Shown here piece after piece: positions 1,924 to 6,177 of a stretch of 44,751 nt of DNA; within the stretch, counting starts at the first letter, position 1; each line of letters begins with the position of its first letter. A program made the translations under genes and the position numbers. This stretch comes from Sphingobacterium thalpophilum (lineage in GTDB: Bacteria; Bacteroidota; Bacteroidia; B-17B0; Aurantibacillaceae): positions 1-44,751 of the forward strand of contig CALPON020000006.1 in assembly GCA_943325195.2 (NCBI GenBank), given 5' to 3'. The notes beneath the pieces are model-generated. The model was not told the DNA's origin and did not search any database. It worked only from the letters and a program-made list of their open reading frames with translations.

Positions 1924-2742
1924 CTATGCGAGGTCAGCAAAATAGGCCTCCGTCTTTCTGAAATAATAAAAGCCGCAAACTAGGAGAATCATTGCGGAAC
2001 AGAGACCAGGCGCCACACTGCTCCAGTCGAGCTGACTGCCCTGTAAGGGAGCACGAAAAAGTTCAAGTGCCGCTGTCATTGGGTTTAACTGCATAAGGAA
2101 ATGTAGGGCTGGTTGCTTAGCAATGGTTGCAGGATAAATCACTGGCGAGACAAACAACAAAAACTGGATCATAAAGGGAATGATGTAACGGAAGTCCCTG
2201 TACTTCACATTCAGCGCGGCAAGCAGCGCTCCGGCACCAAAAGTAGTTATGCAGGTAAAAAAGAGCGCCAAGGGAAAATAAAAAAAAGCAGTCCAGTGAA
2301 TCTCATATCCTTTCAGGAGACAGGCCACAATAAAAACCAAAAAGGCCATCACGAAATCAAAAACACTGACGAGAATGGCTGAAATGGGAATGATGAGCCG
2401 CGGAAAATAAATCTTCCGAATGATGTTGGCATTAGCGACCATGCTGTTACCAGCATTGTTTAAACCGGTTGAAAAAACACCCCAGAGTACTAGGCCACTA
2501 AAAGAAAATAGTCCGTACGGCATCTGCATATTTGTATACGCGGCCACCGGCTTTCCCAGAAAGTAAGTGAATAGTAAAGCCAGTAAAAGTGGCTGCAGAA
2601 TGGCCCAAGATACGCCCAAAACACTTTGTTTGTATTTTACCTTGATGTCCCGAAGCGTAAAAAAATAAAAAAGCTCGCGGTAGTCCCGCAATTCCTTCAG
2701 TCCCAGTGAAAAAGTGTGCTGAGGTTTAATTTCGCTTTCCAT
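1924..2742 (-). CDS. ABC-2 type polysaccharide/polyol phosphate export permease (Wzm-like)
   Basis: Six-TM permease with FFFTLRDIKVKYKQSVLGVSWAILQPLL and NANIIRKIYFPRLIIPISAI motifs. Confidence 0.9.
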   Translation of the reverse strand: MESEIKPQHTFSLGLKELRDYRELFYFFTLRDIKVKYKQSVLGVSWAILQPLLLALLFTYFLGKPVAAYTNMQMPYGLFSFSGLVLWGVFSTGLNNAGNSMVANANIIRKIYFPRLIIPISAILVSVFDFVMAFLVFIVACLLKGYEIHWTAFFYFPLALFFTCITTFGAGALLAALNVKYRDFRYIIPFMIQFLLFVSPVIYPATIAKQPALHFLMQLNPMTAALELFRAPLQGSQLDWSSVAPGLCSAMILLVCGFYYFRKTEAYFADLA

Positions 2743-3305
2743 TACTTCAGCGCACTTATTTTTAAATAACCAAGGTGTTCTTCGTCCGCAAGGACTGCAT
2801 CTGCAGGACGAATCCGCAGTTCGAATTTATCTTTATCCCCTAAAAGGTCTTCAACACGGTGTATGTCGTCCAGATCAAAACCATACTTATCATCCACATG
2901 TGCAATACCTGCTTTGGTGCCGGTTGCGGCGGATTTAAAGAAGTGGGACTGCCTAGCAATTTTTAAAGCCGCAGCAATGGATTCCGCCACAATTAATTGT
3001 TTACAATGCAGCTCTTCAAATAAACCGGTTTGATAACCGCCCAGATTTATAAAAAATAATTGTAGGTTTTTTGACGGACGGCCCACCTGTTCGCGCGTTA
3101 AGAGCTCAATCGAATACGCACCCACCCTGCTGACTTCGCGCCATGCATCAATATGCAGTGCGCCGCTATCTGGCCAGAATTTTTTCATCTGGGGCACAAG
3201 GTCTTTCAAAGAATGGCCCTGCCCAAAAAACACATCGTGCTGCTCCGTCAGTCGTCCCGCAGGCCTGCATCCCAAAAGCACCATGTAAAGCCGGACCATC
3301 TCCAT
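2742..3305 (-). CDS. DUF1543 domain-containing protein
   Basis: MVLLGCRPAGRLTEQHDVFF ... HIDAWREV motifs recalled for DUF1543; start overlaps the neighbourhood of the Ddl fusion end. Confidence 0.7.
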   Translation of the reverse strand: MEMVRLYMVLLGCRPAGRLTEQHDVFFGQGHSLKDLVPQMKKFWPDSGALHIDAWREVSRVGAYSIELLTREQVGRPSKNLQLFFINLGGYQTGLFEELHCKQLIVAESIAAALKIARQSHFFKSAATGTKAGIAHVDDKYGFDLDDIHRVEDLLGDKDKFELRIRPADAVLADEEHLGYLKISALK

Positions 3306-3329: not shown

Positions 3330-6038
3330 TTAATGTGTTGTTTCCTTGCTGCGCAAAAGGCGCTGCTGACCGAAGTCCAAAATTCTATCAATAAAGTCGA
3401 ATGGTTTATAGTGATTCATAGCCGCCTGATGAAAAATACAGGTTGCGGGTGTCATGCCAGGTAGAGAGTTCACTTCAATAAAAATAATTTCGGCACGACA
3501 GTCCGGGTACACCCTCACAAAGGCATCAATGCGACAGTAACCACCCACTTTAAGGACCTTTGCTGCACCCATCAGCGCTGCTTTTACCTGTTCTGAGACT
3601 TTAGCGCGGTCAGATGGGGCAGGCGCGTAACGCGCGGGGGTGATGTTTTGACCTTGTCCTGCCAAAAACTTTTCTTCTAGTGATAAGACCTCTCCGTCAG
3701 CTAGTGCTTCACTGGCTTCAAATACTTCGTAGAGCACCTCGCCTTTTTCATTGTAACGGGTGAGCATGCCGCCAGTGACTTCCAGAAAATGTCTCGCATC
3801 CTTTTTGCTAATCAGTTCTTCTACTAAGATGACTTTTTTCTGTGGAAATTCTTCTTTCTGTTTAATGTGTAATTGCTCTGCTGCTTTTTCATCTAATGCT
3901 TCTGTCTGTCTGAACATCAGGGTACAAAAAGCGCTGAACTCTTCAGGCGATTTTATTTTTTTAACCGCGCTGCTGCAGCCATCATCAACTGGCTTAGCAA
4001 TGAAGGGGTATGAGAGGTGGCTTGCAATTTTTTGCAATACCGCCGCGGCATCCTTTGTCCACTCTTCTTCCTGAATCAGTAGGTGTTCAGCGACAAGAAA
4101 ACCATGTGCGCGCAGAATTTCATTCGTGCGGTATTTATCGATGGTGATTTCAGAACTTTCACGGCCTGAACCATTATATGGAAGACCAACTTTTTCGAGT
4201 TCAACCTGTATGGCACCGTCCTCACCAGGACGGCCATGCAGTGCGATGAACACTTCGTCTGCTTTTTCTTTCAGATCGTGAAAGCTTAGTTGTACAGGGT
4301 TTGCTGTAAAGGTTGAACCTGCATACTTTGCCGTAATGGCGCTGCATTGGGACATGATCCCAGCAATTACTGGATGAACGGCATAGTGTTCGACTTTTTC
4401 TTTAATGTCATCTGCATTGTCTTTCAGCAGTAAATTTATGGGTAATTGGTACAATTGATGCTGGGTTGCGCTTCCTGTCAAGAAAACGGGAAAGGCCTCA
4501 TATTTTTCCGAAGAGGCAAGTTTCTCAAAAACATTTCGGCCGCTTTCTACAGAAATATGTCGCTCCGAAGAGTAACCACCAAGAATAACTGCCACTTTTA
4601 TTTTTTTTACTGCGGCGTGTTTTTCTGCTTCAATCTGTTTATCCAGTTGAGAAAGCAAATGTGCATAGCGCAGATTTCCTTTGGATTGCAGGGTACGTCG
4701 TTTCAGAGAAGTGCGAATAATAAAGCTGAGGAACTGTGAAGGATTTAAACCAATTTCTGCGGCCTGATGAAAAAAGAAAGAAGAAGGCATCATGCCACTA
4801 GTGGTATTTGGATCGTTGAGGTAGATCTTACCATCATTGCCTAGAAAGCCGTCAATGCGCGCGTAAACATCAAAGTGTAGTTCGCGGAATAACCGTTCAC
4901 ACTCGCTTCGGATCGCCGTTATTTGTTTTTCAGGCAAATCTATTGGCGTAATTTTTCGCGAAAGTCCGGGTAGGTATTTACTGCGATAATCAAAAAGTTC
5001 TTTTCCTTTGCGAATCTCGGTCGGGGGCAGGGCAATGGCCGTGCCGTTTTCATCTTCCAAGACAATACAGCTGAACTCCCTGCCGGCAATAAAACCTTCT
5101 ATCAAGGCCGTATTTTCTGCATCGAGACTTTCAATTACAAAGCCCTCATTTTTTAAATGTGTATTAAAGAACTTTAGAAGCTCATTGGGATCGGCGATGA
5201 CCGGTGCATTTAAAGCCGCAGGCGAGGTAATTTGCACGGGCATACCGATGCCTTCGCGTATATCCGCCAGTGTTTTGACATAGTCCGTTTTCTCGCCATC
5301 CGTTTTTTTCTGCCACTCAGCGGCATCTAACCAGCGCGTAAATAAGGCTTTTTCCACGGCCTGCTGAAAGGACCCTTCATCTTCTGATTCCAGAATACTA
5401 ATCCCAATACTCGAGCCCTGGTTGGCTGGCTTTACCACGCATGGGAACCCGATTTTTTCTTTGACCTGTCTAAAACTTTCTTTTGCCTGGCCGCTGATCC
5501 ATGCGTCGCGGCTGATGCGCATGTATGCAGGACTGTTAAAGCCCGCTTTCACCATGAGGTCTTTTTGCACGGATTTATCAACACCAATAGCAGAAGGTAA
5601 AATTCCGGAACCGCTGTAGGGAATCTGCAGATAGTCGAAAAGACCCTGAATACGCCCATCTTCACCGAATGGACCGTGAAGACACAGAAAGGCGAAATCT
5701 ATTTTTGTACGCAGGACTTCTAGATTTATTTTTTCTCCAATGCCTTTAAGTAAGACCTCTTGTTCGGCAGTTCCAGCAGGTGCTAGGTTTTCGGCGTATA
5801 ATTGAAAAACACTGTTTTCTGGCAGGAATTCAACTGGAGGGTAAAAGTCGCGGATGGTGCCTTTGTAAACATACTGCCAGTCCAGCTCCACAAAATTTCC
5901 GAAACTATCAACAAACAAGGGAATTGCTTCAAATAGAAATTTGTTGAGATTATCGTAGACCGTTCTGCCGCCTGCAAATGAAATTTCGCGTTCCTTACTT
6001 TGACCGCCGAAGACAATGCCTACCCTTATTTTACTCAT
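3330..6038 (-). CDS. Tandem (fused) D-alanine--D-alanine ligase family protein, two Ddl-like ATP-grasp halves
   Basis: 902 aa. N half: GGQSKEREISFAGG, CLHGPFGEDGRIQG, YSGSG, VKPANQGSSIGIS, ARIDGF. C half: GGYSSERHISVESG, ALHGRPGEDGAIQ, YNGSG, AKPVDDGCSSAV, CRIDAF, IEVNSLPGMTPAT. Confidence 0.9.
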   Translation of the reverse strand: MSKIRVGIVFGGQSKEREISFAGGRTVYDNLNKFLFEAIPLFVDSFGNFVELDWQYVYKGTIRDFYPPVEFLPENSVFQLYAENLAPAGTAEQEVLLKGIGEKINLEVLRTKIDFAFLCLHGPFGEDGRIQGLFDYLQIPYSGSGILPSAIGVDKSVQKDLMVKAGFNSPAYMRISRDAWISGQAKESFRQVKEKIGFPCVVKPANQGSSIGISILESEDEGSFQQAVEKALFTRWLDAAEWQKKTDGEKTDYVKTLADIREGIGMPVQITSPAALNAPVIADPNELLKFFNTHLKNEGFVIESLDAENTALIEGFIAGREFSCIVLEDENGTAIALPPTEIRKGKELFDYRSKYLPGLSRKITPIDLPEKQITAIRSECERLFRELHFDVYARIDGFLGNDGKIYLNDPNTTSGMMPSSFFFHQAAEIGLNPSQFLSFIIRTSLKRRTLQSKGNLRYAHLLSQLDKQIEAEKHAAVKKIKVAVILGGYSSERHISVESGRNVFEKLASSEKYEAFPVFLTGSATQHQLYQLPINLLLKDNADDIKEKVEHYAVHPVIAGIMSQCSAITAKYAGSTFTANPVQLSFHDLKEKADEVFIALHGRPGEDGAIQVELEKVGLPYNGSGRESSEITIDKYRTNEILRAHGFLVAEHLLIQEEEWTKDAAAVLQKIASHLSYPFIAKPVDDGCSSAVKKIKSPEEFSAFCTLMFRQTEALDEKAAEQLHIKQKEEFPQKKVILVEELISKKDARHFLEVTGGMLTRYNEKGEVLYEVFEASEALADGEVLSLEEKFLAGQGQNITPARYAPAPSDRAKVSEQVKAALMGAAKVLKVGGYCRIDAFVRVYPDCRAEIIFIEVNSLPGMTPATCIFHQAAMNHYKPFDFIDRILDFGQQRLLRSKETTH

Positions 6039-6065: not shown

Positions 6066-6073
6066 CAAAGGTA
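6066..6073 (-). promoter_or_regulatory. Candidate Bacteroidetes -7 element (TACCTTTG) for the Ddl fusion gene
   Basis: Minus-strand TACCTTTG matches TAnnTTTG upstream of the start at 6038; no clear -33 TTG found. Confidence 0.4.
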
Positions 6074-6177
6074 AAAGAAAGACGGCGCAGACCGTCTGTA
6101 CCTTTTGGAATTAATTAACATCAGTTTGTAGATAGAGAGGGCTTTACTTTGCTACTTTCGGTTCTTATTTCAGGATA

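Follow-up and report, generated by a model that had tools for sequence, protein, structure and literature searches.

The window, the whole stretch of 44,751 nucleotides analysed here, carries a tandem D-alanine-D-alanine ligase (Ddl) gene at 3330..6038 on the minus strand, encoding 902 amino acids from an ATG start to a stop codon at 3330-3332 (coordinates of all parts of this gene refer to the same strand). The first-pass annotation, which gave no strand, had described this one frame as two complete Ddl-type ATP-grasp ligases, and the exact open reading frame, Pfam and TIGR01205 all agree with that description. By phmmer and the residue map, the N half (residues 1-450; 4689..6038) is a complete Ddl with N-terminal and ATP-grasp domains, and a gap between its matched stretches marks an insert of ~74 residues in the ATP-grasp domain (232-305; 5124..5345) that DdlB does not have. 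A linker (residues 451-478; 4605..4688), predicted to be a long helix by DSSP on the structural model, joins it to the C half (residues 479-902; 3333..4604), which phmmer and hhalign identify as a second complete Ddl, with an altered acceptor pocket.

Pfam assigned two Dala_Dala_lig_N domains to the 902-residue protein, together with Dala_Dala_lig_C in four stretches, and the NCBIfam model TIGR01205 scored 377 bits across its whole length. Searched separately against the PDB, the two halves retrieved the same solved Ddl structures: the closest phmmer match of the N half was Salmonella Typhimurium DdlA (3i12, E 2e-39), and those of the C half were the DdlB-type enzymes of Yersinia pestis and Escherichia coli (3v4z/1iow, E ~1e-22 to 1e-21). 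Compared with single Ddls by hhalign, the C half matched at 100%. An AlphaFold model of the tandem protein, built on a 57-sequence alignment, had a mean pLDDT of 84.7 and a pTM of 0.86, with pLDDT below 50 only in the two omega-loops (residues 345-361 and 780-798); the N-half insert was predicted to be folded (pLDDT 82-93). The best 50 Foldseek matches to this model in the PDB were all Ddl or Van-type ligases.

Upstream of the gene, we read a candidate promoter element, TACCTTTG, at 6066..6073 (minus strand), which we take to fit the Bacteroidota -7 promoter consensus TAnnTTTG. At 6077-6100, close upstream of the ddl start, lies a terminator-like element, a hairpin (GACGG-N6-CCGTC) with a T-rich run after it. 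Directly downstream of the gene are reading frames for a DUF1543 protein (2742-3305) and an ABC-2 type exporter permease (1924-2742), which overlap by one base; near 80 related loci, homologues of the permease occurred at 13 and of the DUF1543 protein at 4.

To compare the active sites half by half, we split 127 tandem proteins into their halves and aligned them with 20 single Ddls and with E. coli DdlA and DdlB (MG1655 record). The 127 homologues have a minimum identity of 41% to the window protein, and residue numbers below are those of E. coli DdlB unless a position in the tandem protein is given. In the N half, the GSSIG serine loop (5403..5417) places S209 at S150, the FDYRSKY omega-loop (4974..4994) places K354 and Y355 at K215 and Y216, and the metal/substrate loop NDPNTTSGMM (4788..4817) places D409 at E270, N411 at N272 and S414 at P275; each of these holds in 127/127 homologues. 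Across the same homologues the N half keeps E15, K97, K144, S150, E187, K215, Y216, R255, D257, N272, G276 and S281, and it is canonical apart from Asp at the metal ligand E270 and Ser at P275, each in 127/127. The N-half metal loop is thus altered and not lost, E270 to Asp being conservative and N272 being kept.

The C half diverges at other positions. Its serine loop, GCSSA (3966..3980), has C688 in place of S150, its omega-loop, SLEEKF (3666..3683), has K790 and F791 at K215 and Y216 (both 127/127), and its metal/substrate loop, IEVNSLPGMTPAT (3441..3479), has E855 at E270, N857 at N272 and T866 at S281 (126/126 readable rows). Fixed changes in the C half are S150C, Y216F and E17H (each 127/127) and S281T (126/126), and every equivalent of the ATP/Mg ligands, K215 and R255 is retained in 126-127 of the 127. 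By comparison, S150, Y216, E270, P275 and S281 are present in all 22 single Ddls. The changed residues S150, Y216 and S281 belong to the serine loop, the omega-loop tyrosine and the acceptor-binding serine, and the equivalents of the latter two in Burkholderia pseudomallei Ddl, Tyr221 and Ser286, contact D-Ala-D-Ala (PMC6899670).

All motifs named in the first-pass annotation are present (N half: GSSIG, FDYRSKY, NDPNTTSGMM; C half: GCSSAV, EEKF, IEVNSLPGMT), and its by-eye placement of EEKF is borne out by the alignment of K790 and F791 with K215 and Y216 in 127/127 homologues and in the PDB alignment. The complementary divergence of motifs that it reported between the halves is a fixed property across the 127 homologues; S281T and E17H are further C-half changes that it did not list. 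Its concern that both halves might keep all catalytic residues holds for the ATP/Mg ligands, which are present in both, and does not hold for S150, Y216 and S281, which are changed in the C half. Catalytic positions were at least 99% conserved at 18/18 sites in the C half and 17/18 in the N half, against ~21% of all positions (the P values for this contrast assume independent positions and serve as a rough guide), and mean pairwise identity was equal between the halves (0.620 and 0.623). The rate of evolution is the same in the two halves, and both are under strong constraint; because of this catalytic conservation and equal identity, a decaying pseudo-domain is unlike the data.

To survey the fusion across the Bacteroidetes, as the first-pass annotation had proposed, we sampled 244 Bacteroidia genomes and counted by hand, a few of the genes counted being cut by contig ends. 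A tandem Ddl was present in ~112 of the 244, spread over 35 of ~69 family codes, and the remaining sampled Bacteroidia had a single Ddl of ~330-400 residues. The sample from other classes of Bacteroidota, ~150 genomes, contained none. In the family of the source organism the tandem gene occurred in 59 of 60 genomes, fragmented at contig ends in a few of these, and the single genome without it is 56% complete. Carriers include a cultured, named species, Marivirga lumbricoides CGMCC 1.10832 (L126). A search for a separate ddl of ~330 residues found no other Ddl in the source genome (2.9 Mb, 98% complete), and by TIGR01205 a second full Ddl was absent from 79 of the 80 tandem genomes checked, a list that includes one genome of a truncated family (G287; see below). 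The one genome with a second Ddl (G014, L188) has a standalone 336-residue protein besides the tandem one, on a 6-kb contig, for which contamination is possible.

Three other loci in the survey were irregular. A contig labelled Candidatus Saccharibacteria (L070) encodes a tandem Ddl 69% identical to that of the window and is probably mis-binned or mislabelled Bacteroidota. In a single-contig genome (L210, G133) the tandem Ddl is broken near residues 69-77, by a frameshift or a sequencing error. Two contigs of one genome (G298, C49 and C50) each carry at their edge a C-half copy 64-65% identical to that of the window, a possible strain mixture or duplication.

One set of relatives, family f66, has a shortened protein. 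It comprises 41 genomes, mostly of 4-8 Mb (L213, L215, G287 and G482-G521), with proteins of 555-677 residues, most of them 555-640, that match the window protein over residues 1 to ~575 only and so consist of the N half and a remnant of the first subdomain of the C half. In some f66 proteins this remnant keeps the GG motif of the Ddl N-terminus (FGGFNVDAKEDS, FGGYDAEIREES), and in others the motif is eroded; this graded erosion suggests that the C-half ligase was lost from a tandem ancestor. The f66 protein was the only strong Ddl match in 33/33 genomes tested, with an extra weak Ddl-like reading frame (326-337 residues, 69-81 bits) in 4 of the 33. Its N-half active site is canonical, with D270 invariant in the 27/27 proteins examined and Pro at 275. 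An Asp at 270 is compatible with serving as the cell's Ddl and so is probably functional. Tandem N halves differ from f66 proteins at positions 274, 275 and 278, which makes f66 an imperfect stand-in for them.

As to how the tandem gene arose, a native ddl was most likely duplicated in tandem and then fused early in the Bacteroidia, as inferred from derived residues shared by the halves, and duplication in place would be the simplest reading. The N and C profiles align over 401 columns by hhalign. We found 43 columns in which both halves are fixed on residues that are rare in single Ddls, and at 14 of these the two halves are identical; this exceeds what we would expect of halves drawn from unrelated Ddls, on an informal comparison without a computed null, and suggests common descent of the two. 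In trees each half formed one clade, and the long branches meet, so that the trees speak neither for nor against a sister relation of N and C. The gene neighbourhood of the tandem gene (HAM1 / PASTA-protein / RluD) is common to the single-copy ddl of other Bacteroidia. Two further fusions were seen: a 1200-residue frame (G465; L206 842-4441 / L257) that joins a PASTA domain, normally encoded by the neighbouring gene in this class, to a tandem Ddl, and a 669-residue frame (G150, L208; G150:C33 near 44410-45147) that combines a SAM methyltransferase domain with a Ddl-like ATP-grasp domain.

Ddl is an essential enzyme that D-cycloserine targets, and it is regarded as a ~330-residue homodimer. Our preferred reading, to which we give about an even chance, is that the tandem protein would be the sole D-Ala-D-Ala ligase of the cell, an asymmetric single-chain pseudo-dimer with an ordinary N half and a C half that would be a second ligase with a different or broader acceptor. 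Residue conservation and the N-half-only relatives point to an N half that would use ATP to join two D-Ala and so supply peptidoglycan synthesis. Because the f66 protein is the sole strong Ddl of its genomes and carries D270, the N half is most likely a working D-Ala-D-Ala ligase, its odd metal loop notwithstanding. For the C half, a second ATP-grasp site whose acceptor specificity has changed is the probable reading: its ATP/Mg site is complete, the catalytic Lys and Arg are present, and S150C, Y216F and S281T, which appear to re-tune the acceptor pocket, are held invariant. A second active ligase site for a different or broader acceptor is our best guess for this half, the Y216F change alone being weak evidence for a changed acceptor. 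The first-pass annotation suggested a built-in heterodimer in which one half is specialised, and this agrees with the differing residues fixed in more than 100 genomes, the constraint on both halves and the usual lack of a separate Ddl.

Less likely than a C half with an altered acceptor, and possible at best, is a C half that does not ligate and acts as a regulatory or structural pseudo-subunit, binding ATP and perhaps D-Ala, stabilising or allosterically gating the N half and taking the place of the homodimer partner. Such a role would agree with the change of all three residues of the triad S150, Y216 and S281, with the fact that f66 proteins without the C-half ligase core still retain a portion of the N-terminal subdomain of that half, which hints at a structural need for it, and with the normal dimerisation of Ddl (PMC6899670). 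However, the invariance of the ATP/Mg ligands, R255 and K215 in 126-127 of 127 homologues goes beyond structural need, and the rate of evolution is no higher in the C half than in the N half.

We consider it rather doubtful that the C half acts as a second ligase dedicated to a different D-Ala-X dipeptide or depsipeptide. If this were true, a single bifunctional enzyme would give many Gram-negative Bacteroidia two different peptidoglycan precursor termini, or else a soluble D-dipeptide. Phe at position 216 is diagnostic of depsipeptide ligases in lactic acid bacteria (PMC5996685), and the C half conforms to this rule. The link to D-Ala-D-Lac ligation made in the first-pass annotation stands as far as Phe at the Tyr216 position is concerned (127/127); as a sole basis Y216F cannot establish the use of D-lactate, and S150C and S281T have no citable counterpart. 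Against the NCBIfam equivalogs for D-Ala-D-Lac and D-Ala-D-Ser ligases the whole protein scored 195 and 203 bits, below the cut-offs of 550 and 520. The tandem C half has Phe at Tyr216 in common with Phe-type depsipeptide ligases such as Leuconostoc LmDdl2 (1ehi) and differs from them in also having C150 and T281 and in lying within a Gram-negative tandem protein.

It is improbable that both halves make D-Ala-D-Ala in similar roles and that their residue differences are neutral historical variants that followed the duplication. The metal sites are intact in both halves and changes in the triad need not abolish ligation, a Phe-bearing Leuconostoc-type Ddl being active (PMC5996685), but every homologue, over wide divergence, has the same fixed differences, without drift, and the changes fall together on three acceptor-side positions. 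More improbable still is a reversed assignment in which the C site and not the N site makes D-Ala-D-Ala: although the canonical E270/P275 metal loop is found in the C half and not in the N half, the 41 genomes of f66 keep only the N half as a strong Ddl, with D270 invariant, and it is the N half that keeps S150, Y216 and S281, as do 22/22 single Ddls. That a sequencing or assembly error fused two adjacent ddl genes can practically be dismissed, since the same uninterrupted frame is shared across ~35 family codes, cultured M. lumbricoides included.

Genes whose products might use a second product of the tandem enzyme were also sought. The source genome encodes two MurF-type ligases (G000:C51:6795-8045 and G000:C57:14778-15953), one of them in a 799-residue frame, the size of the class-wide MurF-Alr fusions. 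A second MurF was rejected as the user of a second product, as the MurF-Alr fusion occurs in nearly all Bacteroidia tested, whatever their type of Ddl. A VanX-type peptidase (Peptidase_M15) had no match in the source genome, a result that is uninformative.

Tandem ATP-grasp halves with distinct jobs are known from CarB, the large subunit of carbamoyl phosphate synthetase, which belongs to another family with another chemistry and serves as an analogy only. With the canonical homodimeric Ddl (E. coli DdlA/DdlB, 3i12) the tandem protein has fold, domains and ATP/Mg ligands in common, and its N half matches all the key residues except for E270D and P275S; it differs in having two copies per chain, the 74-residue insert in the N half and the fixed S150C/Y216F/S281T changes in the C half. 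Other larger cell-wall proteins with a fused Ddl are PASTA-fused Ddl and the chlamydial MurC-Ddl fusion (NCBIfam NF011171); their fusion partner is a different one, whereas here Ddl is fused to Ddl. The tandem family is certainly in public databases, most likely under the plain name D-alanine-D-alanine ligase, and our searches of open-access PMC papers turned up no description of a tandem Ddl in bacteria.

The closest precedent is the plant plastid DDL (Arabidopsis At-DDL, Physcomitrella PpDDL), which also has two Ddl units per polypeptide. At-DDL and its moss homologue each come from one gene in which two putative DDL enzymes are fused, an arrangement found throughout the plant lineage (PMC9954125), and the moss Ddl is closest in sequence identity to the Fibrobacteres-Chlorobi-Bacteroidetes group (PMC9434261). 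The plant gene is nuclear and eukaryotic, unlike the bacterial tandem, and we liken the two by description. The plant DDL literature leaves the functional difference between the plant halves unsettled.

About half of the sampled Bacteroidia use a single-chain Ddl with two fixed, non-equivalent active sites. Family f66 appears to have later discarded the second site, and this natural series makes the role of that site directly testable. The tandem Ddl is a candidate bacterial counterpart of the two-domain DDL in plant plastids, which is itself unexplained.
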